The translations under genes and the position numbers were made by a program. A model generated the notes under the pieces. It was not told the origin of the DNA and did no database searches. It saw only the letters and a program-made list of their open reading frames with translations. A DNA stretch of 64,000 nt from Bolinopsis microptera (lineage: Eukaryota > Ctenophora > Tentaculata > Lobata > Bolinopsidae): positions 13,678,169-13,742,168 of the forward strand of contig NC_087072.1 of assembly GCF_026151205.1 (NCBI RefSeq), written 5' to 3'. This document shows, piece after piece, positions 14,418-49,501 of this stretch (its first letter is position 1; each line of letters starts with the position of its first letter).

Positions 14418-17216
14418 TCACCTGTTCACGTTAAATGTGATGTCAAGGATGTCGCTGACATCAAGTATACTGTATTTGTATAGAATACTAGGTCGGTCTT
14501 TCAGAAGCTTTCTGAATTTACTCTTCAGGAGTCTGTCATTATAACATCTTGAAAGAAGTGTCCTATAAAGGGTGTTGGTAGAACACAGAAAAGAATCAAG
14601 GTCAGAGATAATGGAAGAGTAACGAAGGACCTGACCGTAAAAAACATTATAACCAACAGAAGAGGAAATATTACTGTTAGGAAAGGTGTACATGACCACA
14701 GGAAAGTTGAAGTCATCAAGTTTGTTGTAAAGCTTGGTGGCGACGTGTCCGGAGTTATTCATCGAGATGTTGATGTCGAGATAGTTTACGGACTTATTGT
14801 CGTCACCACTCCTCTCCATAAGCAGGTCAGGTGGATAAATGGACCTGATTAGGTTAGAGAAATGCAAATAGTTCATGGTGTTGAGGTCGTCGACATATCT
14901 GCAGTTTCTTGAGAGGAGCTTAGCGAGACCGAACTTCTTTTCTTTGATTAGGCGTGTCATGTAGTTGAATTCACACTTCCCTAGCGAAAGATCAGCGAAC
15001 TGGCTACTAGAATTCCCTCCCATGGGAATGCCTTTCGTTTGTCTTAAAATCTGATCCCCAAAACAAACAAAAGTGTTAAACAGAATAAATGTAATAGCTG
15101 TTTTGAGTTTATCAGCAGAAAAACATAAGTATCCGTTATATTCCTTTTTAGAGAAAAAATTGTTGTTCTTATACAGAGAAACACAAATAAATTTATTCGT
15201 ATTACTAAAGAGGAGATCTATTAGCTCGAAAAGCAGTGACTGTACAACCTGAAGGTCTAGATTGGTATACAGAGTGGTAAAGTCGTATACCTGCATATTA
15301 AAAATCTCTAGTCTAGGCAGCCTTTCCAGGAACTGTTTAGAGCTGTTAATGCTCCAGTCGCAGTTAATTCCAGTATTGTTGTAGATAGAGTTGCAGTATT
15401 TGGAAAAGTATTCTTTTAAAACTTTTAAAGCTTTGTTGACTACAACTGATATCTGCTTAGTGGTACATTTACTGGCCCCAGCTATAAATCTAGACTTATA
15501 AGGATTCTTGTGAAGTTTAGGAATCCAAAAGATTCTCGGTAGACAAAGGTTGTCCTCAGAAACACGAATATTAAAGTTATCTTTAATGAAGTTCACATGT
15601 TCCTGAATAATATCATCCTCTACAGAGTTAACCGGATGATAAGTAGAATTGCCACGACACTCTAGAGAAGTGAGATCGTAGCCAAGTTCGTTGAGAAGGG
15701 TTAAAAGATAAAACTTCTTGCAGACAAAAACATAATTATTTGAAGCTTTATCTACGGAGCAAATAATAAAAGAAGAAGAAAGACTGTCGAGATAAGATTT
15801 AACATCATCCCTTTGTAGAATGGAATTGTAGGGAGTGAAGTTATTAGGGGAGGAGGAGAGGAAGTTAAGGCGATTGGTGAAGATCCGGGAGACCTCATCT
15901 TTCCAATCCTGGAATTCCAAACATGAAAGTCCATGTTTCCTAGCCATACGGGTGGCGAAGTTGGCTGAACACTCGTTGAGGCTCTCCAAGATTTGCTCAG
16001 GAGGAACAGACACAGGTTCCCTAAATTTGGTACCGTAACTCATGATGCCTCTTAAATCCTCGTGCTCAATGAAAGCAAGGTCACCGGTGATGATGTGGCC
16101 TCGAGGCTGATAGCAATAAGGGTTACTGGAACAGGGGCAATCACCTTCCAGGATGGAGGAAATAGTAGTATTATCAAGTGATTTAAGGAATCTATTATAA
16201 TTAAAAAGCTTACGCCCGACAGGAATATCGTACTTATAGTAAACTTTTAAGGGAAGGAAAGGCGTAAGGTTTGGAGGGAGAAGAGTCAAGATCCTAGAGT
16301 CACGAATGACTGATTCTATTCGGAGTTTATCAAATATTTTAGAACAATAGTGAAAAGTGATAAACTCGCTATTAACAGAGGTGATATTAGGAGAAGAAGA
16401 GCTGTCTTGGCCAGTAAAAGATTGTATAACAAGGAAAATGGCTCCAGATTTGCAGAGGGAATGAGAGCTAAGTTGCTTGAGCTCGCCTTTTTGAAGGCTA
16501 CTTATATCTTTATAAAAGCTGTATTTGCTTTCAGACATTTTTCTTTTTAAACTTTCATATTTATTGTCAATCTCTCTTAAAGTGAGAGTCCTTTTGTATA
16601 TTCTATCTTCATGGCTTTTGTTTTTCTTTTTTCTGCCATGTCCTCTTTTATATCTTTTTATTTTACTTTTAAAATAAATATCGTTAAAGTTGCTTTTAGA
16701 AATATTACCAGAACCTTTTATGTTGTCATTGAGACCTAGAGGGTGAGCAGTGCTCAGGAGATTAATCCAAAGAAGTTCCCTGTCAGCTAAGGCCAGACGA
16801 GGGTCTTCAGTAGAGGAAGGGTCAATAAAATCAATAATTTGAATGGAGGCGTCATGAAAATTATGACCGGGAGTATTAAAGTGGTCATGGACAAAGGAGG
16901 ATTTGCCGGCTTTAACCGAAGCACGGTGTCCATTCATGCGTTCATTAAGGCGCTGTTCTGTGAGCCCAACATATTGAATACCACAAGAACAAGTGAGGAG
17001 ATAGATAATAGAAGAAGATTTACAAGAAAAGGATTCAGAGTGAGTTAACATGAAAGAATTATTAGTAACGTAACTGGTGAAAATATTACTTGACCTGAAT
17101 GGTTTACAGGTGAGACATCTTGACTTATTACACGGTGTAATATCAGGGGAAATAATACTGTTGGGATGAATCCAAGTGTTGGATGTGATGTTATATATTT
17201 TATTTCCTTTCTTAAG
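14418..17216 (-). CDS. Penelope-like retroelement protein: zinc motif, N-terminal GIY-YIG, reverse transcriptase
   Basis: The first ATG is at 17051, giving 877 codons. The same frame stays open upstream to 17216 and there encodes a Cys motif CNKSRCLTC (C-x4-C-x2-C) joined smoothly to the endonuclease, so the true start lies further up and is lost at TGA 17217-17219. Domains in order: the Cys motif; GIY-YIG-like IIYLLTCSCGIQYVGLT with R and HR downstream; a basic linker RGHGRKKKNK; then reverse transcriptase with IPKLHKNPYKSRFIAG, YDFTTLYTNL (motif A), KGIPMGGNSSSQFADL (motif B) and RYVDD (motif C, near residue 718 from the ATG). Penelope endonuclease is usually C-terminal; the N-terminal order matches the permuted clades called Chlamys and Naiad. 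No internal stops, so the insertion is fairly recent. Host role: selfish retrotransposition. Confidence 0.85.
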   Translation of the reverse strand, partial: LKKGNKIYNITSNTWIHPNSIISPDITPCNKSRCLTCKPFRSSNIFTSYVTNNSFMLTHSESFSCKSSSIIYLLTCSCGIQYVGLTEQRLNERMNGHRASVKAGKSSFVHDHFNTPGHNFHDASIQIIDFIDPSSTEDPRLALADRELLWINLLSTAHPLGLNDNIKGSGNISKSNFNDIYFKSKIKRYKRGHGRKKKNKSHEDRIYKRTLTLREIDNKYESLKRKMSESKYSFYKDISSLQKGELKQLSSHSLCKSGAIFLVIQSFTGQDSSSSPNITSVNSEFITFHYCSKIFDKLRIESVIRDSRILTLLPPNLTPFLPLKVYYKYDIPVGRKLFNYNRFLKSLDNTTISSILEGDCPCSSNPYCYQPRGHIITGDLAFIEHEDLRGIMSYGTKFREPVSVPPEQILESLNECSANFATRMARKHGLSCLEFQDWKDEVSRIFTNRLNFLSSSPNNFTPYNSILQRDDVKSYLDSLSSSFIICSVDKASNNYVFVCKKFYLLTLLNELGYDLTSLECRGNSTYHPVNSVEDDIIQEHVNFIKDNFNIRVSEDNLCLPRIFWIPKLHKNPYKSRFIAGASKCTTKQISVVVNKALKVLKEYFSKYCNSIYNNTGINCDWSINSSKQFLERLPRLEIFNMQVYDFTTLYTNLDLQVVQSLLFELIDLLFSNTNKFICVSLYKNNNFFSKKEYNGYLCFSADKLKTAITFILFNTFVCFGDQILRQTKGIPMGGNSSSQFADLSLGKCEFNYMTRLIKEKKFGLAKLLSRNCRYVDDLNTMNYLHFSNLIRSIYPPDLLMERSGDDNKSVNYLDINISMNNSGHVATKLYNKLDDFNFPVVMYTFPNSNISSSVGYNVFYGQVLRYSSIISDLDSFLCSTNTLYRTLLSRCYNDRLLKSKFRKLLKDRPSILYKYSILDVSDILDITFNVNR

Positions 17217-19696: not shown

Positions 19697-20326
19697 TTAT
19701 GATAGTTCACCAATGGCAATTTGTGCTAGAGAGCGGAAGGCAGTGATGCTGTTATCACTATCATCTCTTAAGATAGACCATGATGGTTGGTCATTAAAGG
19801 AATGGTCCTGCAGGGTTTCCCTGTAAGAGCAGCTGCACAGTGGACAGTAGAAGAGTCTGTGATAATTGGTGTCCAATACCTTACAATTTGGACACTGAGG
19901 GTCACAGTTGTTGGCTACCCTTGCCTGGAAGGCTGCAAAGGTGATGTCATGGCCATGTAGGAGTGACATAACCTTAATATCCGTGTTTCTGCTTGAGTAG
20001 CGAGGAAATAATCGTTTGCTCCTTTCATCAATGTTATCCAGTATCTGACCCTCACTCTGATTTATTCTTGGGTTCAGCAGGAGATGTTTATTCCAAGTAA
20101 ACTCCATGAAGCGGATTATTTCTTCTCTTGAGTAGCTGACAACATCGTTCTGGACACTAGTCAGAAGGTCTATTTTGCTTCTGTTTAGTTCTTTGGACCC
20201 AGTTTTCCACGTTAGAAACTTACGTATCTCGTCAATATGGTGCTGGTATCGGTGGGCCTTTGCCTCCTCTAGCTGCAAGATGAGCCCTTGCATAAATGGG
20301 TCACTTGTAAAGGCCTCCCCCAGCCT
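19697..20326 (-). pseudogene. LINE reverse-transcriptase C-terminal half, split by the 16 kb element
   Basis: About 205 codons reading into the element boundary as LGEAFTSDPFMQGL and ending at stop 19697. The tail has a Cys/His cluster (CDPQCPNCKVL, then HRLFYCPLC), as seen after LINE reverse transcriptases. The matching upstream part is at 36505-37163, whose last codons before the opposite boundary read ALTKASPSLG, so the two halves overlap at SLG. Confidence 0.7.
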
Positions 20327-20344
20327 CGGATCTTAGGATTAGAT

Positions 20345-20780
20345 TTGCAAACATTCCTGAGACACAGGTGCAAAAGTTAAGACAGCAGAATAATCCTAAG
20401 ACAGCAGAATAATCCTAAGACAAAATTTAAGCAATTCTGAGACAGCAAAAAATCCTGAGATAAAATTTAAGAAATCCTGAGACAGCGAAAAATCCTGAGA
20501 CAAAATTTAAGAAATCCCGAGACAGCGAAAAAACCTGAGACAAAATTTAAGAAATCCCGAGACAGCGAAAAAACCTGAGACAAAATTTAAGAAATCCCGA
20601 GACAGCGAAAAAACCTAAGACAAAATTTAAGAATCCTGAGACGCGCGAAAAAACCTGAGACAAAATTTAAGAAATCCCGAGACAGCGAAAAATCCTGAGA
20701 CAAAATTTAAGAAAACCTGAGACAGCGAAAAATCCTGAGACAAAATTTAAGAAAACCTGAGACAGCGAAAAATTTTTAGA
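20345..20780. repeat. Subterminal tandem repeats of the left TIR, about 38 bp unit
   Basis: Copies of GACAGCGAAAAATCCTGAGA then CAAAATTTAAGAAA, roughly 11 units. Subterminal direct repeats commonly serve as transposase-binding sites; that role is inferred. Confidence 0.85.
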
Positions 20781-21011
20781 TACAATTTATACAATAGCCA
20801 CAAGAATATACATGGATATTACATCTTTTAATTTCTTGCAAAGAATATAATAAATACAATATTACTAGGTATAGTAGGAATGTCAATAAGTCAATAGAAT
20901 TTGTCTGAAACCTCTATGTGCCTGCTAATGAAGTGAGTATCCCAGATCATATCTTTACAGGTAGGACTGTATAATGGGGGCCCGATGTTATAGCGGACAT
21001 CATCTCCCCCC

Positions 21012-21045
<34 letters not shown>

Positions 21046-21610
21046 TTACCCATTCTTACTCCCAGTTCCATAGCGGATATTATGCCAAATTATTGGACGG
21101 AGATCGTCAACTAATATTTCTTCGGATATTTCTCCGGTTTGCAGTTCCATAACCTTATCCGGAGACCATCTACGGTAATTTTGTTGATTCTCACAGAGCA
21201 AAGTGCAAAGAAACTGCCACAAACTGCTACAATCTCCGAGAAATCTACTTATTGAGTTATTGACTAGCTTGCTAAAATTCATCGGCAAATTACCGCTGCT
21301 CGAGTTACCTAGCCAGGCCCATTTCAGTTTTGAGTACTGGAGTCGGTTATCTAGTCAAAGCCTAGCTTTTTTGTAACTTGCAAGTGCTTTTGCGGATTCG
21401 ATTTTCAAATAGTCGTGGATTTCGGCAAATAGTCGTGGATTTCGGCGATATTTTCAGATTATTCTTCAATGTCCTCAAACCTGAGCACTGGGACTACTTA
21501 AATTTTTGCTACTATCTGAATGATTTGCTCAAGCTACTGGCTCGCTAGGTTCAAAGGTTTATTTCCTATTTATCATGAAAAAAAAATTGTGCTGGGTAAA
21601 AGTTTATACG

Positions 21611-21684
21611 GTGTTCACCCAGGTTTGAACTCCCGACCTCGCGCTGAGCTAGCCGATCGCCTGGCCGCTAAGCTACTCCGGTGA
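21611..21684 (-). repeat. tRNA-derived sequence (SINE head) in the left TIR
   Basis: On minus, TAGCTTAGCGG resembles a Pol III A box and GGGAGTTCAAACC resembles a B box about 40 nt later. The acceptor stem does not pair well, so it is a tRNA-derived repeat rather than a working tRNA gene. Mirror copy at 35147-35217. Confidence 0.5.
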
Positions 21685-21738
21685 TGTACTCAAGAAATTT
21701 TTGATGTACTTATTTAGTTATTTATTCACCCCTTCTTA

Positions 21739-22044
21739 CCCCCAGTTCCATAGCGGATATTATGCCAAATTATTGGACGGAGATCGTCAACTAATATTTA
21801 TTCGAATATTTCTCCGGTTTGCAGTTCCATAACCTTATCCGGAGACCATCTACGGTAATTTTGTTGATTCTCACAGAGCAAAGTGCAAAGAAACTGCCAC
21901 AAACTGCTACAATCTCCGAGAAATTCCCGGAGAGCTTCATCTCCGTATAACTGTATAATACAGTAGACGGAGCCGGAGAATCATCACCGTAGAAATGGAC
22001 CTCCGTCTAATAATTTGGCATAATATCCGCTATGGAACTGGGGG
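21739..22044. mobile_element. 306 bp PIF/Harbinger-like MITE nested in the left TIR
   Basis: Inverted ends of about 45 bp, starting CCCCCAGTTCCATAGCGG, flanked by TTA. Its left 190 bp is also present at 21057-21247 as a partial copy on the other side of the tRNA-like sequence. Inverse copy at 34799-35096. Confidence 0.8.
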
Positions 22045-22962
22045 TTAATCTGATTAAAAGCTACAAAAAATTCCAGAAATGAGATGGCTGGTTAACACCT
22101 ACCTTTGGAAAGCTCTGATGAACCTGCCTGTGGAGAAATAAACGCACTTAACTTCACCTCAATTGAGCAATAACTATTTATCGCTTATTACTTCATTTAT
22201 TTTGGATGTACAGTGTGCTTCGTAACTAATTTATTATTACAAAGTTTACTTTCTAATAAGCTAAAACGACAACTAATCTTTCGTTTTACTCCCTACTGTA
22301 CAGGTTTACTCGTCAATCCAGGTATATGAGAATGTGTGAGAATGGTCTTGAAACTCTGAAAAGAGGGAAGCAGTTTTGGGGACGGGGAGATTGAAGCGGG
22401 CGGGCGACTAATGAACCCCCCCCCCCCCCTATTGTAAGCCCCCCGGCTTACAATTGACCCCCCATGCAATTACACTGAGTCAATTGATCTCAGTATAATA
22501 ACATGGGGGTTAATTGTCGGTGGTCAATTGTCGTACTAAGCCTTAGATTGTACCTGCTAATGAGGTGAATATCCCAGATCATAGCTTCACACTTCACAGG
22601 TAGGACTGTATAATGGGGGCCCTGATGTTATAGTGGACATCACTTTCCCCTCCCTTATCTGATTAAAAGATACAAAACAGTCAAGAAATGAGATTGGTTA
22701 AAACCTACCTTTGGAAAGCTCTGATGAACCTGCCCGTGGAGAAATAAACACACTTAACTTCAGCTCAATTGAGCAATAACTGCCTATTTATCGCTTATTA
22801 CTTCATTTATTTTGGATATACAGTGTGCTTCGTAACTAATTATCATTATTATATTATATCAGCGAATGTGAACATCCATTTTAAATTTGTAAGATGCTAT
22901 CTCAATATCATTACTACAGATTATTCCTTTTTTACTAATAACCCCAGCTTCAGCTTAATAGT

Positions 22963-24109
22963 ATGTCAAACATCAAAATTTGTGACGAGGAGGGCTACAG
23001 CTTGATTCCCATTTTTGTAGTAAAAAAGCCAAAATCTACAATAGCTGTTGTCAAGGAATCCTCGACCAACGAGGACTTCCTCGTAGTGATTCTGGGGGAG
23101 GATGGTTATGGGGGACTCCACAGGCTGGAGGTTAAGATTGGGGACCAGCATTTCACGTCCCTTACTTCGTCAGATGATGGTAATCTTCTATTTTTCGGAA
23201 GAGGGCTTACAGAATTTATAAACATAGTATAAAAATAATGATTCTTTCCATTTTGATTTGTCTAATAAACCGATATCGACTGTTATCAGATGATTAGAAC
23301 TACCTTACACTTTAATTGCTAATCAGCCAATTCCAACAGGCCTGCGGGAGCTGAGAAGTAAGTTGACGTTTGGGTGTGAGCTGTTCTGCAGTAAAGTAAA
23401 ACAGGTGAAATGGAGGCAGGGTACCCGAAGTGAGGCAATAGCTGCCTCAATCATCAAAGAAGGGGTAAGTTGAATAATAGATTTACACATTTTAAAGGGC
23501 ACAGATGGTCAAGGAGGAAATAGAATCCCGTGTACTTGGAATTTTGAGATAGCTGCCCAACCCCCTCCCCCTCTTCCGTTTCTCCCCCCCCCCCCCCCCC
23601 CATCCCCATCCCCCGCCCCTTCTGTTTTTAAGCTACGAAAGTTTTAGATGCTTCAATTTGGGCCAAGGTAATGTGACCTATATCTTGATTAGTTTTGATC
23701 AACTTGCATCACGTGGCCCTAGCATGGCCATGGGGTACATATGTTATATGATACATTAATCAGTTAATAAATATTTCTCACCCAGAACACGACACACATA
23801 AATCACCATCTCCGGAAAAAATTGAAGGCAAACCGGGAGCTTCTTGACACCGTCCTTGGACCAGATCCGGTGTATAATGTGATTTCCCCAGTGGAAATAA
23901 TTTGCCCTGTGTGCGGCAAAGTTGTTCAGCTGACACGGACAGGAGGGCTTAGTGCTTTCACGTTGCATTCTCGGAGGAGGCATGCTCACAGTGAGGCCTC
24001 GAGAGAGCTGCTCAGGGCTATTAAGGAAAAAGAACAACTGCAAGTGGATCTTCCGCATATAAAGAGAATTAAACCAGATGCTTACAAGAGCTTCGACATT
24101 GGCTCTTGA
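22963..24109 (+). CDS. Element gene A: zinc-finger-like protein, three exons, 221 aa
   Basis: Proposed exons are 22963-23179, 23340-23464 and 23786-24109 with GT/AG junctions. The first intron is phase 1 and the second phase 0; all three frames connect without stops. The start is ATG 22963, first in frame. The middle exon encodes a basic stretch with SKVKQVKWRQGTRSEA. The last exon carries CPVCGKV followed by LHSRRRHAH, a C-x2-C...H-x4-H zinc-finger-like motif, and ends basic. I do not recognise the family. As the first of three co-oriented core genes it could be a DNA-binding accessory factor; this is inference. The unspliced ORF at 22963-23232 alone would end 18 codons after the proposed donor. 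The splice model is unconfirmed. Confidence 0.55.
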
Positions 24110-25231
24110 TGGTTATAATTGTTTTTTTGAACCTGCTAACAGCGTGCGATTTCATTTGTGTTCATTTCTTTTCATTCATCTTATCGTGTCAATGATAAAT
24201 TATTACCTTTTTCTAATTTTTAGTCATGATCACAGTCGAAGACCGTGATCATGTATTTTTCCGATGCCCTATTTATTGCAGTCTTATACATCATTATAAT
24301 CACGTCACCTCCCGCTTAAACAAACGCTTAAACAAACATGTTATAAACAGTCCCCCTCCGAGGGTCTTAGTGTTAAGTGTTAAAAAGTTAAAATGCAGTC
24401 TTCAGCGTTTCAAAATACAAGATAATAATGATATTACAACAGATAATTACCAATTTATAACATTGTAAATCAATTTTGATGACTAAATTAAAAGATTAAA
24501 GCAACGAAAGTTCTGATTAGTTATTGAATAGTTTTTTTCCGATGCTTTATTAATAATCAATCTGCACCCGAACCGTTAACGGGAATTGTAATGCTAGAAG
24601 TAGCATCCCTTGTAGTCCATTGCTATCTCCTTCAGGAACATGGAAATCTCGTTCCCTATATAACACTACTAGTGTCATATTACTGGTCGTCGTAATCCCA
24701 AGATGGCCCCGTATTGTCTGGAATAATTGTTCTGTCATATTATAAAGTTATAAACTACTAGTAAATTTTGCAATTTGGGCATGTACTAGAATAAAATCAC
24801 GTGTATTTTACTAGTAAATATAAGTTCTAACCAACCTCGAACGTATCAAACGGGGAGACGTTTATAAATTTATGTTCCCCCATGTAAATAAACTCGACAA
24901 CTGTCATGACACGATATCAGACCGCACAAAATTAAAACTGAAAGTATAGTTATTGACTAAGGAAACTGAGGGAAGGCTGTCTCGGATTCTTGGCAGTGAA
25001 ATTATTAAGTTATTATATCATTGACCGATTATTCCCACACATCAATCTTGATCTATATTTTAGAGAGCTCTACAATTTTCAGATTAGATAATTACAAATT
25101 TATTTATGCTCTTATGCTTTGAATCATAAAATTATCATTATCATAAAATTATCATTATATCATAAAATTATCATTATCATTATTCATTGTACAATCACGT
25201 CACCTTTTTCATTCATTAAGTCATAATCAGA
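24110..25231. other. Element spacer between genes A and B
   Basis: AT-rich with no supported gene. Short TCATAAAATTATCATTAT repeats at about 25125-25180 precede gene B. Confidence 0.5.
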
Positions 25232-27465
25232 ATGGCTGAGATTCATGGAGCTAGTGGGACTATCGTAAGAGTCAGAAATCATTCACGGAAGAATGAACAG
25301 GAAAAAGAGACGTACTTGCCATTCAACGCAACAATGTTACACCTAAAAGACGTTATGGGAGTTAGTCACAAAACGGACATCTTCTTGTCTTCCATAGTAA
25401 ATGGGAGAGAGTTCTTTTTGACGGGTGATGCCTCTCTTCAAGGCTTCCTGCTGATGAGCCATTTCGGCGAAGGACTAATCAGCCCCAATTTGAAGTTAAG
25501 ATACAAGAGGAAGCCCAAAACGAATGAGCAAGGTAGCGATCTTCGTCCTAGATTCATTTTCACTTTATCATTCATGCAACATTCACTCACATGACATATA
25601 AATTATATTGTTCAACCACACGAAACGGGTTGAGCAACTTGCAAGTTGTGATTCTAATAATGTAGAATTAACAATTTACAAATCATCAGTCTTAAGTATT
25701 TGAGTTATAAGTATAACAGATATTATATCAGGTGTTGAGACTGAGAGGAGTGCAGAAGCGGAAGGGAATCTGATTGTGGAGGCAGATGTTGAGATGGACG
25801 CTGACGGTAAGTTTCTAATAAATAACAACCGCACTAAACTAGTAAATCAGGGTTTGCGGTAAAACGGGGTTTTGTTTGTTCACATTATTCATATTAAATC
25901 AGGGGTTAATGTATATTGTCTGCTATTCTGTCGATTTAGGAGGGTTACATTTCGCACATGTATTGATGTCAATATGTAATTGTACGTGTAGCGATTTAAA
26001 AATAAAGTGTAGACATCTCACTTGGTTACCAATTGCTAAGTTGTTAGACATCATCAACGTATGGCCGCACCTAGCACTCTAAGAAGACCTTGCCTTTTTC
26101 AGACAGTACAATAGATAATGTGCTCCGGAATTTGCCAAGCGAATCTGACATCAGCTTCCCATCAGGTTATTTACTTTTGTTGGCACTTGTTAGTTGTAGT
26201 ATTAATACCGTAACGAATACATTATACGCCACTATTAATGTCTTTCTCCTTTTCTTGGATCTCCGAAATTATACAGTTATTCGTATAATTGACTTTATAA
26301 TTATGACCAAATGTTTTCAGACGTGTTCGATAGTATTGATCCCATACAGGGTGAGTTATGTACTGTTTTTTTTTGTAATATTTTGTCGAATTGTTCTAAA
26401 TAATTATATTACTATAACACCTTCGCTTCTTTGGGCTCCGCGTGATAATCCCCGACAGCTTGCTAGTATAGAGGGAATTTGCGGCCCGAAGAACCGAAGG
26501 TATTACATTGTATATGCTATAACTGTTGACGCAATTCCGCTTGGAACATGACGTGTAATAGTGTAATGTGATACGTCCGCATGTGTAATATATAGTGCGC
26601 AACTTTTATTTGTTTTGAAAACTTCCCGCCAGCCAGTCTAAGGTGACTCGCCTCTGTGCTGATAATACGCTCGCTTCTCTTGCGGGAAAAATATGAAAAT
26701 AACCAGCTCTCAATGTCCACGAGTTTTAGTGCTGCATATATTTCCCAGAAATAGTTATAGCAGAAAATTCTAGATTGAATATTGGATCTGAATTTATTAA
26801 GTTAAATGGTCTCACCTAGCACTCTAAGTTCTAACAGTGCCTTAACCGTTTCAGACAGTGCAATAGAGGAAATGCTGGGTAGTTTGATTGTGGATTCAGA
26901 TGTTGAGATGGAGGCTGACGGTAAGTTTTTAATTTAACAACCGCACTAAATCCATGAATGAATTAATTAATTAGGTAATTAATTATATAAAAATCAACCT
27001 AATCTGTCAAGCCCTTAAATTAAGCATATCATCAAATATCATCATTTTCACTTTATCATTCATGCAACATTCACTCACATGACATATAAATTCATAGTTG
27101 GTTCGAGAGATATTGTTCCTGACCTGGAACAACCTGCAAAGAGAAGGAAGAATCCTGATGAATCTTCAAGCTCTGTACCAGATGAAGCCATTGCTAGTGG
27201 ATCTTATTATGTGATAAGACTAGAGTCAATTTTCGTACTTGGAAGAGTCGTTTCTTCTAATGCTGTTTGCAATGAAATTGTCGTGCAGTTTTTCAAATCA
27301 ATTGCATTGACTAGCAAGTTACATTTCGAGCCTTGGGGCAAGCCAGAGTCCGAGGTGACTAAAGAGCAGCTATTAAGTATTTGCCCCATGCCAGAAGTAT
27401 CCCAGGGACGCCGATACAAATTGATCTTCAAAGCCGGCGACCTCCCTAGAACTGACCTAAAGTGA
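25232..27465 (+). CDS. Element gene B: acidic nuclear-type protein, six exons, 300 aa
   Basis: Exons 25232-25532, 25732-25806, 26103-26165, 26321-26350, 26855-26920 and 27098-27465. All five introns are phase 1, and all exons join in frame, including a 30 bp microexon. The N-terminal exon (about 100 aa) has a globular pattern ending in KLRYKRKPK. The middle exons are short and acidic; exons 2 and 5 are similar to each other (EADVEMDAD and DSDVEMEAD). The final exon has a basic patch AKRRKNP, a possible nuclear signal, then a beta-rich region with EPWGKPESEV and SQGRRYKLIF. No family recognised. A duplicated intronic sequence (25555-25602 and 27044-27091) supports internal duplication of this gene. 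Its role within the element is unknown. Confidence 0.6.
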
Positions 27466-27514
27466 TTCTATGTAACTTACTGTAACTGTCTGGAAGTCCG
27501 GAACTATTCGTCTG

Positions 27515-27931
27515 CTAACTGTGACAACAAACTTGAAAGCCTTCTAACTCTAATTCTTTTCCTTGAAAAGCCATACTTACAACCGTGCAGTTTGTTTCGT
27601 TGAAACACAGAACATCAAATTTTAGGTGCTGTTCAATTTCATCACGTATATTAGAGATTGCTTTGCTCAAAGATCGAATATTAAGAGATTGTACTTTAAA
27701 TTGATAAGGCCTACTCGTGTTGATTTGCCGTGGTTCGTAGTATTTACAGCTATTTAGTACATCTGAGCAGTTATCCCATGGATTAAAGTTTAAGTCATTG
27801 TTTTCTTCAAAAGTATTACCTATATAATTAGAGTCATGGTTTCTATGGTATGGGTTAAATTTTGCGCTATTCTCGTATTTACCGTGTACGGTGTATAATT
27901 GTCTAGGTGATACCTCGAAACCAGGAAACAA
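27515..27931 (-). pseudogene. LINE fragment: start of an APE-type endonuclease
   Basis: 138 open codons containing VQSLNIRSLSKAISN and FDVLCFNETNC, matching the first beta strand and the N-E-T motif of LINE apurinic endonucleases. No reverse transcriptase follows. It sits between genes B and C, antisense to them. Confidence 0.65.
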
Positions 27932-28151
27932 TTCACGTGTGCAGCTTTTGCATCCAAACGGCTACATTACAATGAGTTTATTTAAAATTTAAAATAGTAT
28001 ATTATGTCTTTTACTGTTTTTAAAAACCAATGAGAAAATCTTAAACTCTGCAGATTGAGATTTGGCTTTTTGATTGGCATATTCTGCCTATATTAAAGCA
28101 AAATCTGTATGCTTGCGAAAGTCGGTACCCCACACAGCGTACAATGTTGCA

Positions 28152-28201
28152 AAATGTCGGCAAATGTCGACGTGGCGACATTTGGCGACATTTGTCGACA
28201 T
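28152..28201. promoter_or_regulatory. Inverted AAATGTCG / CGACATTT repeats upstream of gene C
   Basis: Two AAATGTCG copies followed by two CGACATTT copies form a compact inverted array about 90 bp upstream of the gene C start. It could form a hairpin or bind a dimeric factor; function is inferred. Confidence 0.35.
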
Positions 28202-28283
28202 TATAAGGAACATGATGCCTAATTTTGCGGGGCTTAGAATTCTGTTGCCGTATACCCGTAATTCATTTTAACATTTCAACAGG

Positions 28284-31200
28284 ATGGAATTTGGGTCGGA
28301 TGGGGCAACGACAAAACAACTTCGGGATATCATCAAGGATGAGAATTGCTGGAGTACTGAATGCACATCAGCACTGTCTCCGCTCCAGATATTCTGCTAT
28401 GATAGACTACAGCACACATTGCAGTCATTTATACCTGGATTTGATGTTTTGGTTAACCCTATAACCGCATTCTGTTATGGAATGAACTGTGCAGCGAAAA
28501 ATCGATGCATTTCTCTTCATCGGCTTAATGATATATCAAGGTTTACATCTCATGTATCAGGACATCAGGACTCATGGTCAAAATCAGTCATTGTTCGACT
28601 GGCTTTTGTGGAAAAGGGTGATTATTTTACTGAAAAGTCGGTAATAAATAGCTGGGAGCCAATACCTTCAGTATCAGCGGTTGTGAACGATTGTAGGCAC
28701 ATGATGTTTGAGAGGGATCTCTCCGTGCACTATCTTTCGCACTGGAAGTCAATAATATACAATAATGGTGTAATAGAACAGAGCTCTATACTCTACCAAA
28801 GTGACGATGCTCTGGTCGAAGATATTTTGTCATACCCTAAAAAAATACCAAATTGGGGCAAATGGCAAGCTATCAAATCATGGGCTGTTAAGTTCTACAA
28901 CTCCGTTTCAGAAGGCCAATACGGTCTTTTTTCAGGGGAACGTAGGAAGCGTAAAGGGACTTCTATCGAGGAACTTGAGAAATATACAAGAACGATTAAC
29001 CATATTACACCTGGATACACTACAGTAAGCTCGTGGCAACCCCCAGTCACCGTAGAGAGTGGTTGTCATCCGAATGTTATCTTGGCACATATACAGGTCT
29101 TAGAGAATAGAACAGATGCTATAATGGTAAAATCGGAAAAGTCAATGAGGTACCCTGTTGTTGTTTGTTATGACGGTCAAGACTTAAATCAGGGAGCATT
29201 CTCTGTAAAGAGGAAAAGCGATGGTAAACTATTTCTCTGTGGTCTCCAGAAGATGATGTCCGCAGAGGATATCAGTGAAATAGGGCTCGAAAATTTCCGC
29301 CACTACTTATCAGAGGAAACCTCTTTTGTTTCTGAGGCAAAAGAATATCGGGCTTATGATTTAGCGGGTATATTGTCCTCGAATGTTGCAACATACTACA
29401 GGAGCGCTGCTGAAAAAAATCAACAGATAACTGATGAGGTTAATAGTGTTGTTGATGGGGTGACTAGTTGTAAAACTTGTATCTTATCTGGTGTCCCTTG
29501 CATCTACAGCGATGTTCTCGGGGAATGTGATGCTTGTGCAAGTGGCTGTGGTCCTTGTGTGTCACTGGTGGTTGTGTCTGTTTTTTCTGACATGGCAGCA
29601 ACTCAAGTTGCGTCATCGAAAACAAATCAAAACGTTGTAAAGTCAGTCGAGGCAGTTAATTCAACATACTATCATCGTTCATCATTTGCGTATGGATTTG
29701 GACTTTTGCATGTTGTTAAAAACATCATCAATCACCAAAGAAATCAAGTCATGACTGATACTTATGGAAACTGTATCCATATTGGCATTTTGATAAGTCT
29801 GTGGTCACAGAAGACTGATATCGGTGCAAAGTTAAGGAAACTCCTTTCCCCCCGTGTGATGTATGGAAAAGATCGCCAAGACGACAACAGCAGCTTCAGT
29901 TTGTGCTCTTCCGATGTGCTTGATACTTTGAATGTGTACAACAGATCAAGCTTGTACGTTGTACATAGATTTCCAGAAACACTATTTAGTCACAAAAAAG
30001 ATGCACTCAATCACCATGAGATTAAAGCAATATCATCTTTCATCTGGCATCCTCGGCTTGAGTTATTCTATATTGCAGATAGCTTTACATCTTCCATTTG
30101 GGTTTGTAAGAACAGTTCAATAATGAAATTACAGAAGTTGGACCCCCTCGTTAACAATAAACGCATTCTATCCTGTGTCCAATCTATTTCTGGGATGTGT
30201 TTTTTCTCATTGGATGGCAGAGATTGCTTGATATTTTGTGATAGTAAAGCGAATACTGTCAGGATGATTCTTGTGAAGTCCGGCCCGAAAGGTGTGAATC
30301 GGCTTCACACATTAATCCAAACTGAAAGTCCTAGTTTTGTTGCCACATCATCTTGTTACACAAACATAGTTGTATATTCACAAACCACCCGTATAATGAA
30401 ATTGTACGGAATACAATCAACCAAAGGAAAGTCCCCATCAGTGGAGAATATGAGCAGTAATTTGTGTATCCAACTTGAAGGAGAGGACTATGTAGCGGCT
30501 ATAAACTTTGTCGACTGCTCTCAACATATTTCTATGGTCGTTATTAGCGGAAAAGGAAATATTGTTTTCGTACAGTGGAACATACATGATGATATCTGTG
30601 TTAAATGGACCATAAATATCAGTGATTTAGTGCCCGAATCCGTATCACATTCTTTGGTGACTTTCAATGCAGCATACCAGCAGTTGTGGGCAATCCAAGT
30701 TTCAAAATCCGACCAAAAATCACTTGAGGTTAGAAGCTGGGATATCGATGCGCATGGGCTAAATTCATCACCTCTAGCCAACTTCGGTCTAAAATCCGCA
30801 AAGTTACCTGATGGGTCAGAGGAATGTTCTTACGTCGTAACTAAGAAGAGCACCTTATATCTCATCACTAAAAACAATGTGATATTTGAGGTTGGTAATT
30901 TAAAGTTTGTTATAAGTTACCTCGAAAACTGTTCTCATATCTATAAGGCTGTGGGCTATATACCAAGGGGCACGAAAGCTGCTGATGCTGTTAAAGCTAA
31001 TGTCGAAGAAGCAAAGGAAACACTCACAAAGGCGGTCACCTTCTTCAACAGTCTATTAGAGATGAAGAGAATAGTCAATAACAACGTGAAGGCTATCCGA
31101 TCACAGCATGGATGTGTCTACTATCAAACCATCGATTGTCTAAGTTCATCAATAGACAGTATGAACATAGTTATTGAACGTTGCAAGCTTCTTCAAGCTT

Positions 31201-31989
31201 GCAACTTGCACCATTTAAAGCCACACACTATCTTTAATGAAGCAATGATCGAACATGCTTTTGGGAAGTCAACCTCGTCAAGATCTACTTTCAATAAAAG
31301 CATGGCGGAATATGTTGCTAGCAAAAGAAAAAACGAGACTGATGTGTTTTATAAAGTTTGTAAAAACCCCTGGATTCAGCAATCCTAATGTGTATCGCAA
31401 ACGATACTGTGAACCACCCACAACCAGCCTTTCTGTAAGTGAAGTACAGCAAGTTTTGAAATCGGTGAAGATCGCACCTGATAAAACCTTCACTTTGATG
31501 TCTCTATCCGACACAAATGCAGATAATGAAGTAACTTGCATTAAGGGGGCAGTCAAGATCGCCAGTGCTCAACCTCGACAACGGAACAGAGTGAAGTGGC
31601 AGGAAACAGCCGGATTTAAACCTGTGCTTCTAGTGTCAAAGCCGGATGTCGGTATATCATTCATCTTTAAAGAGAATGATATAATCCCCATAGTAAATAA
31701 AAACTTCGGCTCGGTTCAGTTTGTGCACATCTCTTCGAATGTATCCTTGAATGACTTCTTACATTTTCGGTGTTGTGTAGGTAATGCGATGGATCCAAAA
31801 ACGGGTGAAATCGACTCCACTGAGTTTGTGATTACCGAAGTGAAGACAGTTGTAAATGAAGACGCTATAGTTGTTGACAAAACCGGAAAATATTTTGTTT
31901 TGAACTATACCGAGTCCCTGATGGTAGGCTCGAACTGTAAATTGCCTTCAGAATTTGTGGAATCTGTTGAAGCCTCAATTGAAGCATAG
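28284..31989 (+). CDS. Element gene C: putative transposase-like protein with propeller-like region, one frame break
   Basis: ATG 28284 opens 1034 codons to TAA 31386-31388. A second frame, open from 31255 to TAG 31989, continues the protein; one extra base in the AAAAACCCC run near 31362-31370 would join them. Residues about 290-540 hold an Asp in YDGQDLNQGA (near 296), a Cys-rich insert (396-430), SDMAAT (D436), FGLLHVVKN (H476) and KDRQDD (530-534). That order, acidic residues with an H-x2-K-N helix, recalls RNase H-fold transposases such as P/THAP9, but this is inference. About 580-870 looks like beta-propeller repeats (FIWHPRLELFYIADS; SLDGRDCLIFCDS). About 905-950 is helical. The tail after the break has RVKWQETAGFKPVLLVSK and YFVLNYTES. 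A CAACAG acceptor just before the ATG suggests an upstream 5' exon. Family not recognised. Confidence 0.7.
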
Positions 31990-32862
31990 ACAATAGACAT
32001 CTGTCGTAGACCTTAATAATTATTGATAATTGTTTAGGGGTAAAATTTGTTTCTTTTCGGGTAAATATTTAGTCGAGCTAAATTATGCATGATTCGATTA
32101 ATATCTGATCATAGCACTTCTCTTAAAATAGCACTTATTATACTCGTAACGACGTTCCGTTGTCAGAGCCAAAAAGTCCGATCTATTTATAAGTTTTTGG
32201 TTAATTATTAAATTAAGTTCACATGCTGATAGCTTTTATCTTTTGATGAGCTCTTTAGCTGTGATAGGTTTATATGTTTACCGTTTATAAACTGTAGGTC
32301 AGAATCGCTTAACGAGGATTTATCAGTCATATGATAGTACAATAGTCAATAATGATGTAATGTTATTCGACTGTCAAAAGGTATTTTGTTTTGAACTATA
32401 CCGAGTACCTGATGGTAGGCTCGAACTATAAATTGCCTTCAGAATTTGTGGAATCTGTTGAAGTCTCAATTGAAGCATAGACATCTGTCGTAGACCTTAA
32501 TAATTATTGATAATTTTTTAGGGGTAAAATGTTGTTCTTTTCGGGTAAATATTTAGTCGAGCTAAATTATGCATGATTCGATTAATATCTGATCATAGAA
32601 CTTCTCTTAAAATAGCACTTATTATACTCGTAACGACGTTCCGTTGTCAGAGCCAAAAAGTCTGATCTATTTATAAGTTTTTGGTTAATTATTAAACTAA
32701 GTTCAGATGCTGATAGCTTTTATCTTCTGATGAGCTCTTTAGCTGTGATAGGTTTATATGTTTACCGTTTATAAACTGTAAATCAGAATCGCTTTTAACG
32801 AGGATTTATCAGTCATACGATAGTACAATAATGATGTAATGTTATTCGACTGTCAAAAGGTT
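31893..32862. repeat. Tandem duplication of the gene C 3' end, about 488 bp unit
   Basis: 31893-32380 and 32381-32862 are adjacent direct copies, roughly 95 percent alike by eye. Each begins in the last codons of gene C (TATTTTGTTTTGAACTATAC) and continues into 3' flank ending TCGACTGTCAAAAGG. The second copy has the same final codons and stop but no upstream gene. Confidence 0.85.
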
Positions 32863-34031
32863 CCTTTTATCCTTTTATCGTAATTTTACTTTATACGGAT
32901 ACACGAACCTGTCTTTCACTGCTTCCAAATCCGGCCAAACGAGGAATTGAATTGTACTTTGTAGATTCGTCTCGTTATTGAGGCATACTATTTGTTTTGT
33001 ATTTTATAATAAGAATCTTCAGATCATATATCATATTCATAATATCACTGATTCATAATCACCGATCACTCACCAATCCCATTACACAGTTCTGCATGTA
33101 ACAATAATTGGGTTCACAATCCACTGACCACTTCCCGAGATATATACTCTTAACTCATCAAACTAGAGTAACGTAAGTTTAGCTGCACTCATGTTCCCCC
33201 TAACTCTTTCCAGTCTGCTTTTGTAAAATTTCTGTTAAAAGATGATGTTTCCAATTTTCTACTCAATTATAATTTTACCTATTATAAGTCTAATATATAT
33301 TCATATTGCAGGTGAGGACAAATCAATAGTTTTGCACGCCTATACAGTATACATGACCTGCACATATATCCTCCGTTATTGAACGGCTTGCGTCAAGGCG
33401 TAACAGATTTGCTGGGCACTGCATGAGAGCTTCTGACCAAGTTATCTCCTCTATCCTCCCCTGGCGACTTACCCAGTCCGGCCGTGGAACTGTGGAAGGA
33501 GACCACTTACCTTCCTGGACGTAGTAGCTCGTGACACTGGGCTCCAGTTGGACGACCTTCGAACTGTTATGTGCGATCAAGACGTGTGGAGGCAGACAGT
33601 GAATGGGAGTTCGATCGAGGATCGCCGAAAGTAAGTAAGTTGTTCAATCCCCCAGTACCTTTATTATTATAATTACCCTCCTAGGCTCCTACATCCTACC
33701 CGTTTTTGATGCTGTAATCTTCCCGTCCCCAACTTGTCACTATATGGTGCTGTCACTATATAGTGCGTTTTTTACACTATATGGTGACAAAGATCAGCTG
33801 TCATTATAAAGTGCTTGTCACTATATAGTGTTGTCACTATATAGTGCGATTACCCCCAAAACCGCTAATTCCCTCTTTTCATAGTTTCAGGACCGTTCTA
33901 ATACATACTCCTATACCTGAATTGACGAGTAATCCAGTACAGTAGGAAAGTTAACTTTGTAGCTTTTCAGAAAGTTAACTTTGTAGCTTTTTAGAAAGTT
34001 CGGAGTAATCACTCAGGTATAGTATCTCACA
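32863..34031. other. Element right spacer with palindrome cluster
   Basis: No supported gene. Three perfect CACTATATAGTG palindromes (33754-33765, 33819-33830, 33835-33846) and two CACTATATGGTG variants lie within about 110 bp close to the inner edge of the right TIR. Confidence 0.6.
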
Positions 34032-34798
34032 ACGAAGCCCAATCTACATCCAAAATAAATGAAGTTATAAGCAATAAATAGGCAGTTATTGCTCAATTGA
34101 GCTGAAGTTAAGTGTGTTTATTTCTCCACGGGCTAGTCCATCGGAGCTTTCCCAAGGTAGGTTTTAACCAATCTCATTTCTTGACTGTTTTGTATCCTTT
34201 AATCAGATAAGGGAGGGGAAAGTGATGTCCACTATAACATCATGGCCCCCATTATACAGTCCTACCTGTGAAGCTATGATCTGGGATATTCACCTCATTA
34301 GCAGGTACAATCTAGGGCTTAGTACGACAATTAACCCCCATGTTATTATACTGAGATCAATTGACTCAGTGTAATTGCATGGGGGGTCAATTGTAAGCCG
34401 GGGGGCTTACAATAGGGGGGGGGGGGGTTCATTTGTCGCCCGCCCGCTTCAATCTCCCCGTCCCCAAAACTGCTTCCCTCTTTTCAGAGTTTCAAGACCA
34501 TTCTCACACATTCTCATATACCTGGATTGACGAGTAAACCAGTACAGTAGGGAGTAAAACGAAAGATTAGTTGTCGTTTTAGCTTATTAGAAAGTAAACT
34601 TTGTAATAATAAATTAGTTACGAAGCACACTGTACATCCAAAATAAATGAAGTAATAAGCGATAAATAGTTATTGCTCAATTGAGGTGAAGTTAAGTGTG
34701 TTTATTTCTCCACGGGCAGGTTCATCAGAGCTTTCCAAAGGTAGGTTTTAACCAGCCATCTCATTTCTGGAATTTTTTGTAGCTTTTAATCAGATTAA

Positions 34799-35096
34799 CC
34801 CCCCAGTTCCATAGCGGATATTATGCCAAATTATTAGACGGAGGTCCATTTCTACGGTGATGATTCTCCGGCTCCGTCTACTGTATTATACGGAGATGAA
34901 GCTCTCCGGGAATTTCTCGGAGATTGTAGCAGTTTGTGGCAATTTCTTTGCACTTTGCTCTGTGAGAATCAACAAAATTACTGTAGATGGTCTCCGGATA
35001 AGGTTATGGAACTGCAAACCGGAGAAATATTTGAAGAAATATTAGTTGACGATCTCCGTCCAATAATTTGGCATAATATCCGCTATGGAACTGGGG
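34799..35096. mobile_element. PIF/Harbinger-like MITE nested in the right TIR
   Basis: Inverse counterpart of 21739-22044 at the equivalent TIR position, with the same CCCCCAGTTCCATAGCGG termini. Confidence 0.8.
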
Positions 35097-35146
35097 GTAA
35101 AAAGGGGTAAATATATATTTACATCAAAAATTTCATTCGTACATCA

Positions 35147-35217
35147 CCGGAGTAGCTTAGCGGATAGGCGCTCGGCTAGCTCTGCGCGAGGTCGGGAGTT
35201 CAAACCTGCGTGAACAC
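35147..35217 (+). repeat. tRNA-derived sequence in the right TIR
   Basis: Plus-strand counterpart of 21611-21684, with TAGCTTAGCGGATAGG (A-box-like) and GGGAGTTCAAACC (B-box-like). Confidence 0.5.
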
Positions 35218-36004
35218 CGTATAAACTTTTACCCAGCACAATTTTTTTTCATGATAAATAGGAAATAAACCTTTGAACCTAGCGAGCTAGTAGCTTGAGC
35301 AAATAATTCAGATAGTAGCAAAAACTTGTGTAGTCCCAGTGCTCAGGTTTGAGGACATTGAAGAATAATCTGAGAATATCGCCGAAATCCACGACTATTT
35401 GCCGAAATCCACGACAATCCGCAAAAGCACTTGCAAGTTACAAAAAAGCTAGGCTTTGACTAGATAACCGACTCCAGTACTCAAAACTGAAATGGGCCTG
35501 GCTAGGTAACTCGAGCAGCGGTAATTTGACGATGAATTTTAGCAAGCTAGTCAATAAATAGATTTCTCGGAGATTGTAGCAGTTTGCGGCAGTTTCTTTG
35601 CACTTTGCTCTGTGAGAATCAACAAAATTACCGTAGATGGTTTCCGGATAAGGTTATGGAACTGCAAACCGGAGAAATATCCGAAGAAATATTAGTTGAC
35701 GATCTCCGTCCAATAATTTGGCATAATATCCGCTATGGAACTGGGGGTAAGAAGGGGTAAGGGGGGGGGGGGGGGGGGGGGGGGAGATGATGTCCGCTAT
35801 AACATCGGGCCCCCATTATACAGTCCTACCTGTAAAGATATGATCTGGGATACTCACTTCATTAGCAGGCACATAGAGGTTTCAGACAAATTCTATTGAC
35901 TTATTGACATTCCTACTATACCTAGTAATATTGTATTTATTATATTCTTTGCAAGAAATTAAAAGATGTAATATCCATGTATATTCTTGTGGTTATTGTA
36001 TAAA

Positions 36005-36480
36005 TTGTATCTAAAGATTTTTCGCTGTCTCAGGTTTTCTTAAATTTTGTCTCAGGATTTTTCGCTGTCTCAGGTTTTCTTAAATTTTGTCTCAGGATTT
36101 TTCGCTGTCTCGGGATTTCTTAAATTTTGTCTCAGGTTTTTTCGCGCGTCTCAGGATTCTTAAATTTTGTCTTAGGTTTTTTCGCTGTCTAGGGATTTCT
36201 TAAATTTTGTCTCAGGTTTTTTCGCTGTCTCGGGATTTCTTAAATTTTGTCTCAGGATTTTTCGCTGTCTCAGGATTTCTTAAATTTTGTCTTGGGATTT
36301 TTCGCTGTCTTGGGTTTCCTTAAATTTTGTCTCAGGATTATCTGCTGTCTTAGGTTTCCTTAAATTTTGTCTTAAGACTTTTCGCTGTCTTAGCTTATTT
36401 TGACATCTCAGGTTCGCTTAAATTTTGTCTCAGCTTTTTTTGCAGTCTTAGCTTTTCTTAAGCAGTTTGTCTTAGGAATT
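36005..36480. repeat. Subterminal tandem repeats of the right TIR
   Basis: Units of TTTTTCGCTGTCTCAGG then TTTTCTTAAATTTTGTCTCA, about 38 bp, inverse of the left array. Confidence 0.85.
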
Positions 36481-36504
36481 TTTGCAAATCCAATCCTAAG
36501 ATCC

Positions 36505-37163
36505 AAGGCTGGGGGAGGCCTTTGTAAGTGCTTTTATTATAAATTTTATAGTGACCATCTTGTAGGATATCTCAAGGGGTGGAATCCCAAGCGCAACAGA
36601 GGTCAAATCTTTGGGAGGATGGTGAGTGGCCCCGCTTATCTTCAAGAGGACCATGGCATAAAAGTCTTTGAAAGTGTCGAGGTTGTCTTTTAGCCATATA
36701 GGAGCAGCATATAGAAGTTTTGTGAGTACCACTGTTCTGAAGAGCATTCTGAGTGAGCTTGTATTCAGACCTCTGTGGCGGGTGGAGTTTTGGGTGATCC
36801 TGTGCCAGGCAAACCAGCATTGCTTGAGTTTGAATTTTGCGTGACCCTTGAATGTGAGCTTGTTGTCGATTGTTAATCCGAGAACAGTTGATTGATACGT
36901 ATAGGTTATGGGTCTGCTGCCAATAATTAACGGACTTAAGGTTGTGACATCAGGTGCAGTTGAGGATGCTGGTGCGATCATTATGCACTCGGTTTTGTTT
37001 TTATCACAGTTCGGGATTAGTTTCCATTTACTGCACCAGACATGAAGGTATTTGCACATCAGCTGCATTATCCGGTGAGCACATATAGGATCCATGTGGG
37101 ATACTGCTATGCTTCCATCGTCCGCATATTTGAATAGACTTGAGTTAGAGCTGCATTCCAGTT
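36505..37163 (-). pseudogene. LINE reverse-transcriptase half upstream of the 16 kb element
   Basis: The frame runs on minus from about 37163 to the element boundary. It contains the catalytic LFKYADDGSIAV near 37130, VLGLTIDNKLTFKGH, and LLYAAPIW as in LINE C-terminal regions. It continues at 20326 on the other side of the element. The 5' part of the LINE is missing (stop near 37164), a common truncation. Confidence 0.7.
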
Positions 37164-38808
37164 GTTATTATATTAACAGTTACTATTGTAGCTCAAGATT
37201 TGAAATTTGTATTCCTTGTATTCCTTGTATTCCATTCAGCTGATGACGATTAACACATGTTTATTGAAAGCGTCTACAAGTTAAACCATCGTATCGCTTA
37301 TATGTTTCTAACCCAACTCCATTCAGTATTACATAAGGGATCATGTGTCAATATCATTCAATATAAACACAATGAAGCGATAGATTCAGGGGATGTAGAA
37401 TGATTTTCTTCATGAGGGGGCCGAAATCTTAGAGTTTTTCTAATTTAACACACGCTTTGGCCACAGCCTGAATTTCAAAAACAGCAAAACGTGATTTGGG
37501 CAATAGAGATCATTTTCAAGAACGGTTAAAATAATACGATTTTAAATGCATATTAGGGCCTGCAAGCAGCTCTTGCGAAATAAGTGTAGTTCGAAAAAGG
37601 GATGCATATAGGGACTACGGGTGGAAGATGAATAATTGATATTCCAACAGCATCTTGTTCCCTGCATTGTGCTGATTCCGGGAAGCATTTTGTTTACGCT
37701 CTCATCATTCTGTAGGATGAGATATCGTTCATTTAAAATTGGGTAATTATAGGCCTGTCAAGGATTTCAGCCTAATTAAGAGCTGATCAATTGCAGCTAG
37801 TTGTGCCATATAAGGGATAACTGAGGTCACGTGACATTCAGTCCTATCACGTGACCGCTAATCCTATCACGTGACCTTGATTCGTAAAGCCTCGGGCACG
37901 TGATCACATTCGTAACGTGTCGTATGCCGACTAGGAGATTTTGTGACGTCACCAGAGCTGAAGCTACTTGATCAGGCCTTATATGGAATAATATCGTGTA
38001 TCGGGTGTAATTGGACCCAATTAGAGCAGCTGAGCGCTCAATCTGGTACCACCTTCTGAAACCCAGCAGACAGCTGGCCCAGAGAATCGAAATTAGAAGG
38101 ATTTTTTATTGATGGAAATCGAAGCGGAAACCTTGTAACCCTATGTTTTCGATGACGCCGAACAAGATTAAACAGGTTATAATTGTCCTACTCTCGTGTA
38201 AATTGCTCTAAAACGTGATTGAAATTGTAATGATGCTATCAATTGTAATACAGTTTTTACATTAAGCTGAACGGCTGGCATTCCTGGGCCGCACTCATCC
38301 CAGATTGTCATTCCGCCGCAGCTTCAATTTATCTGGATATTACAGCCTGGGGTCCCCAGGTAACGACTGGAACCGCTATATCTGCCTAATCTCAGCTATT
38401 GTAAATAACGAAGCCTGTGATCCGCACATCAGGTATTGACCACATTGAACGGGCTTGAATCGAACAAGCCGTGTTATTAATATTAAAGATATTAATACCA
38501 AAAATCGTATTACTAGATTACCTTGTTGTCATTTGTGCGAAGTGCGTACTCTTTATACTGCAGTTTGAAGTGCATTACAGAGTTAATGTTATGTGTATTA
38601 TACAGTTACAGTTATGTAACTGTTGCACACAGTAAAACTTACTGCGATCGCGCTGATAAGAAGTGAACTGATAAGAGTCGAGTAAAATTGCAACGTAACT
38701 AAAATCAATGTAACACCGCTATATGAATAGTGATCATTTCTCAAATAGTTTTCTCAATATTGCAATGAAGTTGTCCGATTTTATTGATGGAACGTGTGAC
38801 AGCCTTCC
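37164..38808. other. Intergenic with an E-box cluster
   Basis: No gene seen. Four CACGTG E-boxes at 37828, 37848, 37868 and 37897, three in the extended form TCACGTGA, fall within 75 bp about 900 bp upstream of the candidate gene at 38809. Confidence 0.45.
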
Positions 38809-41940: not shown

Positions 41941-41942
41941 TC

Positions 41943-41961
41943 TGGAGGCCGTAATAAGTGG
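41943..41961 (+). other. Putative tRNA primer-binding site
   Basis: TGGAGGCCGTAATAAGTGG begins 2 nt after the LTR, the usual place. The initial TGG pairs with a tRNA CCA end. The tRNA was not identified. Confidence 0.5.
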
Positions 41962-41966
41962 TCGTT

Positions 41967-48487: not shown

Positions 48488-48834
48488 TAGTATAGGATTT
48501 CTGGGACGTTTTAATCTCGTTTTAGACAGACTGAACTCAGCCCAGTCCTTGCTCTGTACCGTGTACTGTTGCACTTGCTATTTGACAGCTAAACTGGTTG
48601 TAAACATGATGGGGATATTATGTTGTATGCTGGATAATGGATATGTTGAAGGATATGCTTGTTGATATTAACTACATGCACTGGAGTCTGGGCTTTGTTA
48701 CGGCCGAATTCTTCTGGGATCTTTACCTTATTCTCCGTCAGAGGAGAACCGTGAAAGAAAATCGAACTGCTAATGAAGACGTCTAGAAACTTATGGAAGA
48801 AGAAACGTACAAGAAATCTCGTCTATACAGCTTG

Positions 48835-49012: not shown

Positions 49013-49018
49013 GCCATT

Positions 49019-49440: not shown

Positions 49441-49501
49441 AATTCGATCTACGCCTCATTTATAGGCGAGGATCAAATCGATCAAATTGTCCCGGGGAGT
49501 A

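Follow-up and report, generated by a model that had tools for sequence, protein, structure and literature searches.

A 16,211-bp element in the genome of the ctenophore Bolinopsis microptera is probably a cut-and-paste DNA transposon, formerly or potentially autonomous, of an unclassified superfamily. It lies in a 64-kb stretch of contig C1 (C1:13678169-13742168), called the window here, whose own positions we use, and it was compared with the whole genome of 264,652,675 bases in 232 contigs. A preliminary description of the window had set the limits of a mobile element at 20327-36504. Matching a 30-bp terminus across copies moved them outward by about 16-17 bp per side, to exact ends at 20311 and 36521 (AGGCCT...AGGCCT), and a TTGTAA target site duplication (TSD) flanks both. 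The insertion lies in a long interspersed element (LINE), as had been proposed: once the flanks are joined minus one TSD hexamer, an uninterrupted LINE frame of 416 amino acids (aa) is restored, which is evidence for the empty site. The termini are GC-rich, for example at 20311-20325. In Mnemiopsis, DNA transposon insertions are described in >90% of looped promoters, with a common GC-rich motif at the loop anchors (PMC12221973).

The element belongs to a family that spread recently. With up to three mismatches allowed, the terminus had 57 matches in the genome (31 forward, 26 reverse), and its reversed control had none at the same limit. Paired by position and orientation, these matches gave 24 pairs and 9 single ends, and exact 6-bp TSDs flank 22 of the 24 pairs. 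The two others are a pair with degraded ends (C13:5468265-5474388) and a pair in a palindromic duplication (C2:1467551-1521556); the 22 pairs besides the latter and the window element span 3,056-10,733 bp. Read on both strands, the 22 TSD hexamers prefer TT at places 1-2 (26/44 and 31/44), and hence AA at the last two. These copies, together with the exact ends, the TSDs and the empty site, bear out the mobility claimed for the element. The C2 pair had been a candidate 54-kb giant member and was rejected, as its flanks are reverse complements, the mark of a palindromic duplication of one insertion. That duplication (C2:1467500-1521620; L049, L050) is about 54 kb across, with arms 95-99% identical where read and one element end in each.

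All thirteen copies that were mapped onto the element of the window are derivatives with internal sequence deleted, and their junctions fall into six classes. Six have the junction 22546/33385 in common (one is off by 4 bp), three have 22645/33519, and four have unique junctions, two of which (L019 and L020) break inside the arms. The right core edge at 33385-33732 is 98.9-99.7% identical in the main-class copies that have it whole, and L013 retains both core edges, including 146 bp of the left one (97.9%). Five copies contain stretches not covered by the window element, most of them in L009 and L016. An insert at window 33733-33853, rich in CACTATATAGTG units, is missing from the deletion derivatives that span that point.

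Matching terminal inverted repeats (TIRs) of about 2.5 kb had been reported, and the alignment of window 20302-22833 with 36530-34032 agrees, at 92% identity over 2,577 columns; the core between them is single-copy. The subterminal arrays are likewise present, with a period of 40 bp rather than the 38 bp first given. The proposal that the TIRs resemble each other through recent duplication or gene conversion was rejected, because in 13/13 copies one arm is closer to the window left arm and the other to the window right arm, and the two window arms are themselves 3.7% apart (96.3% ungapped identity across their first 1.9 kb). Where arms are intact they match the corresponding window arm at 97-99%, and five arms score lower through indels. 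Since each copy keeps an L-type and an R-type arm, the left/right difference arose before the copies spread and was retained.

The core carries three genes in the same orientation, of which two have several exons. Gene A (221 aa) has three GT-AG exons on the plus strand, and L075, a single-frame 232-aa relative, matches its zinc-finger part. That part also weakly matches the N-terminus of C', a relative of gene C (E 3.5e-5 in one search, 0.01 in another), so gene A may encode, as a separate protein, a counterpart of the DNA-binding end of gene C. Gene B (300 aa, plus strand) has six GT-AG exons and a frame open throughout. The domain encoded by its exon 6 recurs (33% over 84 aa, E 2.5e-6) at C13:9480943-9483003 (L074:44-2104), where it forms the C-terminus of an intact 687-aa frame in which Pfam recognises DDE_1 and HTH_psq. 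We take this otherwise unrelated transposase to be pogo-type. Judged by sequence, one putative accessory domain is common to two unrelated transposon types. A dispersed repeat of about 350 bp sits in a gene B intron (window 26393-26784), with many matches in the genome, at 71-86% among those listed (40 of 477 candidates were scored, so that their number is a lower bound), and a LINE endonuclease-like fragment lies between genes B and C (window 27515-27961, minus strand; 39% to a frame adjoining copy L016).

The core genes are under coding constraint. The ratio of nonsynonymous to synonymous substitution (dN/dS; NG86, no significance test, stops in several relatives skipped) was below 1 in 12/12 comparisons of gene pieces with relatives (range 0.12-0.47). 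Gene A gave 0.16 (71 codons) and 0.31 (36 codons), gene B 0.26 and 0.26 for exon 1 and 0.25, 0.25 and 0.41 for exon 6, gene C 0.33, 0.32 and 0.47, and C' 0.12 and 0.12. These ratios and the GT-AG exon models uphold the three-gene reading of the core.

Gene C is the candidate transposase. Its motifs follow the order D-D-xLLH-insert-E, and residues D297, D436 and E990 form a candidate triad, a DDE-like motif set. Ahead of the E, a WD40-like beta-propeller is predicted with modest confidence in C', and VIA and Foldseek searches with the fold model gave only propellers, and no transposase, among the matches listed, while being uninformative on the helical and N-terminal parts. The possible DDE-like core and the propeller-like region first noticed in the largest protein thus have counterparts in a motif set found by reading and in a predicted fold; from the motifs we infer an RNase H fold and catalysis. 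Near 31365-31380 gene C of the window copy breaks frame, a point absent from the preliminary description, or there is an assembly error; across the same point the C' frame and a Mnemiopsis protein are uninterrupted, and L030 and L031, the closest relatives of C, are in a single frame but with a stop there. A tandem duplication (window 31891-32861; 494 columns, 93.7%) takes in the last part of gene C together with the DNA that follows.

Several points weigh against an unclassified transposon driven by gene C. The DDE assignment is a motif reading, and the fold was obtained without the half that holds D1 and D2. D2 was aligned to C' by eye, and the automatic alignment (MAFFT) misplaced that exon. 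The C' fold model has a mean pLDDT of 53 and a pTM of 0.37, with residues 33-145 below 50, and a first structure model reached a pLDDT of 36.9. GLLH stands in place of the C/DxxH signature discussed below. Gene C is present in one copy only and is broken near its C-terminus, its nearest relatives L030 and L031 carry stops, and no TIRs were found in the 22.5 kb that surround C'.

Relatives of gene C form a diverse family. Across the genome, gene C has 13 matches, and only the one in the window is full length. C', 30% identical to it, lies at C12:581750-590324 with a relative of gene A upstream, at C12:580 kb (E 9e-5 in one search, 0.001-0.002 in another). A third relative, C'', lies at C12:3.467-3.471 Mb; the relative of gene B upstream of it, at C12:3.47 Mb, was found with a two-sequence profile at E 3e-4, against 0.094 for the best shuffled sequence. 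An open reading frame (ORF) at C12:577772-578155, considered as another relative of gene B, was dropped (BLASTP E 1.9, no match in a shuffle-controlled search). The A-B-C cassette first proposed therefore stands in part: relatives of gene C adjoin a gene A relative at C12:580-590 kb and a gene B relative at C12:3.47 Mb, and a statistically supported set of all three was seen at none of the other loci examined. C' itself had 23 matches in the genome. Profile A2 matched five proteins, and the one with a name is ACHWQZ_G010908, a hypothetical protein of Mnemiopsis leidyi that matches C' at 52% over 97% of C'.

Catalogued families gave no match and other copies exist, so that neither outcome named beforehand as refuting the preliminary reading occurred. 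Pfam had no match for the eight core ORFs scanned, a set that did not include two minus-strand ORFs (102 and 106 aa), and this agrees with the lack of family hallmarks noted earlier. Pfam likewise had no significant match among 16 proteins of the core and its relatives (best E 0.026, below cutoff), and PDB sequences none for gene C and its relatives (best E 0.43). Gene C alone matched nothing among 5.8 billion proteins at E <= 0.001, nor at E <= 10, and had no match in viral contigs. We found no such element in the open-licence literature, a search that subscription papers and Repbase fell outside.

The best-placed alternative, though an unlikely one, is a very diverged member of the C/DxxH group (P, hAT, MuDR, Kolobok, Dada), nearest to Galileo of the P superfamily. 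Galileo of Drosophila is described with a 7-bp TSD and TIRs of 18-1,250 bp that hold internal tandem repeats, most copies being TIRs with a short middle and no transposase (PMC3573991). The window family also has long, internally repetitive TIRs and mostly transposase-less copies, but its TSD is 6 bp, its TIRs are about 2.5 kb, and gene C has no sequence match to Pfam families. The P element is described with an 8-bp TSD and a helical, GTP-binding insertion domain between beta5 and alpha4 (PMC7776569). P/THAP9 and the window family are alike in their internally deleted derivatives and in an insertion domain between the second D and the E, which fits the motif order of gene C; they differ in TSD length (6 bp in 22/24 pairs here) and in the insert, which here is predicted from the C' model, at modest confidence, to be a propeller. 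Neither THAP nor a P transposase sequence was detected by the Pfam scans, which leave room for distant homology. C/DxxH between the second D and the last E is given as the signature of the whole group (PMC9587614, PMC10045372), whereas C has GLLH and C' has GMLH at that place, and the 16 proteins lack Pfam matches. Kolobok has a 4-bp TTAA TSD, in contrast to the varied 6-bp TSDs here.

Less likely again, an unrelated transposase encoded elsewhere could move the family, with A, B and C as cargo caught by one copy. Gene C is indeed in 1/24 paired copies, with its frame broken there, and derivatives have spread without it. However, L013 retains sequence from either edge of the core, and all six classes of deletion derive from a larger parent; in a second subfamily, diverged and located at C2, the same terminus is followed about 0.6 kb inward by gene B exon 1 (75% at the aa level); the gene B domain is present on another transposase; and the core genes are constrained.

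A degenerate Polinton/Maverick is very improbable. Polinton ends start with AG, as in the window element, and long TIRs and a length of about 16 kb are common to both. The 6-bp TSD described for Polinton (PMC10045372) also agrees, but PolB, retroviral-type integrase, ATPase, protease and capsid were not recognised by Pfam in the eight core ORFs scanned, and none of these families was matched by gene C or its relatives. An assembly palindrome or segmental duplication, as in the C2 pair with its reverse-complementary flanks, can be set aside almost entirely, since the window flanks show no palindromy past the TSD, 22 other pairs stand at separate sites with their own TSDs, and the empty site is at hand.

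Two further systems were compared. Transib has a 5-bp TSD, and the core proteins here have no Pfam match to Transib or RAG. RAG2 is described as a six-bladed beta-propeller that partners RAG1 (PMC4411706), so that a DDE recombinase acts with a propeller there as a putative DDE enzyme and a predicted propeller may here; the RAG propeller is a separate protein, whereas this one would sit within the transposase chain. The 4-bp TSD, TGTNR ends and short TIRs described for Ginger (PMC2836005) are not found here. What DDE cut-and-paste transposons have in general, TIRs and a TSD of fixed length, is present, with the DDE enzyme seen as a motif only. The element combines the anatomy of Galileo, the TSD length of Polinton and a predicted RAG-like propeller pairing, yet has the tested defining features of none, and for this reason we favor an unclassified superfamily. 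Table 1 gives the coordinates of its parts.

Table 1. Features of the element and its insertion site, in window positions
Feature	Position	Strand	Basis
Interrupted LINE, downstream half of frame	19697..20310	-	ORF and flank joining
TSD TTGTAA, left copy	20305..20310	.	Hexamer flanking terminus
Left TIR, L-type arm	20311..22833	+	Self-alignment, terminus matching, arm comparison
Left subterminal array (40-bp period, about 9.5 units)	20392..20773	+	Tandem repeat
Gene A exon 1	22963..23179	+	GT-AG model; dN/dS 0.16 vs C9 relative, 71 codons
Gene A exon 2	23340..23464	+	GT-AG model
Gene A exon 3, zinc-finger-like CPVCG...HSRRRH, ends in stop	23786..24109	+	GT-AG model; relative L075 E 6e-14
Gene B exon 1	25232..25532	+	GT-AG model; dN/dS 0.26 vs C2 relative
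Gene B exon 2	25732..25806	+	GT-AG model
Gene B exon 3	26103..26165	+	GT-AG model
Gene B exon 4	26321..26350	+	GT-AG model
Gene B exon 5	26855..26920	+	GT-AG model
Gene B exon 6, domain elsewhere fused to DDE_1 transposase	27098..27465	+	GT-AG model, profile matches
Gene C, open frame of 1034 aa, candidate transposase; further exons possible upstream	28284..31388	+	ORF, genome matches
Candidate catalytic D1 (D297)	29172..29174	+	Motif reading
Candidate catalytic D2 (D436)	29589..29591	+	Correspondence to C' judged by eye
GLLH, in position of C/DxxH signature	29700..29711	+	Motif reading; GMLH in C'
Predicted WD40-like beta-propeller, residues about 556-873	29949..30902	+	Mapped from C' model
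Candidate catalytic E (E990)	31251..31253	+	Motif reading
Gene C C-terminal part, other frame	31375..31989	+	Break near 31365-31380
Right core edge, retained as loop in commonest deletion class	33385..33732	.	98.9-99.7% in copies
Right TIR, R-type arm	34032..36521	-	Self-alignment, terminus matching, arm comparison
Right subterminal array (40-bp period, about 9.8 units)	36001..36390	-	Tandem repeat
TSD TTGTAA, right copy	36522..36527	.	Hexamer flanking terminus
Interrupted LINE, upstream half of frame	36528..37164	-	ORF and flank joining

Other putative mobile DNA lies on both sides of the element. At window 41133-50310, direct repeats of 809 bp, 99.1% identical, enclose long gag-pol-like frames, presumably a long terminal repeat retrotransposon. 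A 932-aa frame at 14418-17216 on the minus strand we take to be a Penelope-type reverse transcriptase, and two adjoining frames (594 and 566 aa) at 50924-54409 on the plus strand presumably belong to a LINE of CR1-like type, cysteine-rich at its N-terminus.

If the element is a transposon driven by gene C, there is a possible division of labor among its genes. Protein C, as a DDE transposase, would pair both ends, excise the element, by cut-and-paste rather than copying, and insert it, with a 6-bp stagger, into AT-rich targets that resemble TTWWAA. The zinc-finger protein A would help C, by binding the 40-bp subterminal arrays or competing for them, and the product of gene B would act as an adaptor or in an accessory role. 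Copies with internal deletions, reduced to TIRs and a short loop, would arise by faulty repair and move in trans, as P and Galileo derivatives do.

More tentatively, with the chances slightly short of even, the family may be a new, possibly ctenophore-restricted superfamily, in which a DDE transposase with a WD40-like propeller as insertion domain is accompanied by gene A, a free zinc-finger DNA binder, and gene B, a mobile adaptor domain. The insertion domains of characterised DDE transposases are described as structurally alike (PMC7776569). A propeller in that role would, if true, be a new transposase architecture parallel to RAG1-RAG2, and would join chromatin or protein reading and DNA cutting in one chain, as a fused counterpart of that pair. 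The family is open to testing: its ends are intact, its target preference looks palindromic, its candidate residues are defined, and many non-autonomous copies could serve as substrates. If true, this would also explain large TIR repeats, unclassified by standard libraries, in a lineage sister to other animals.

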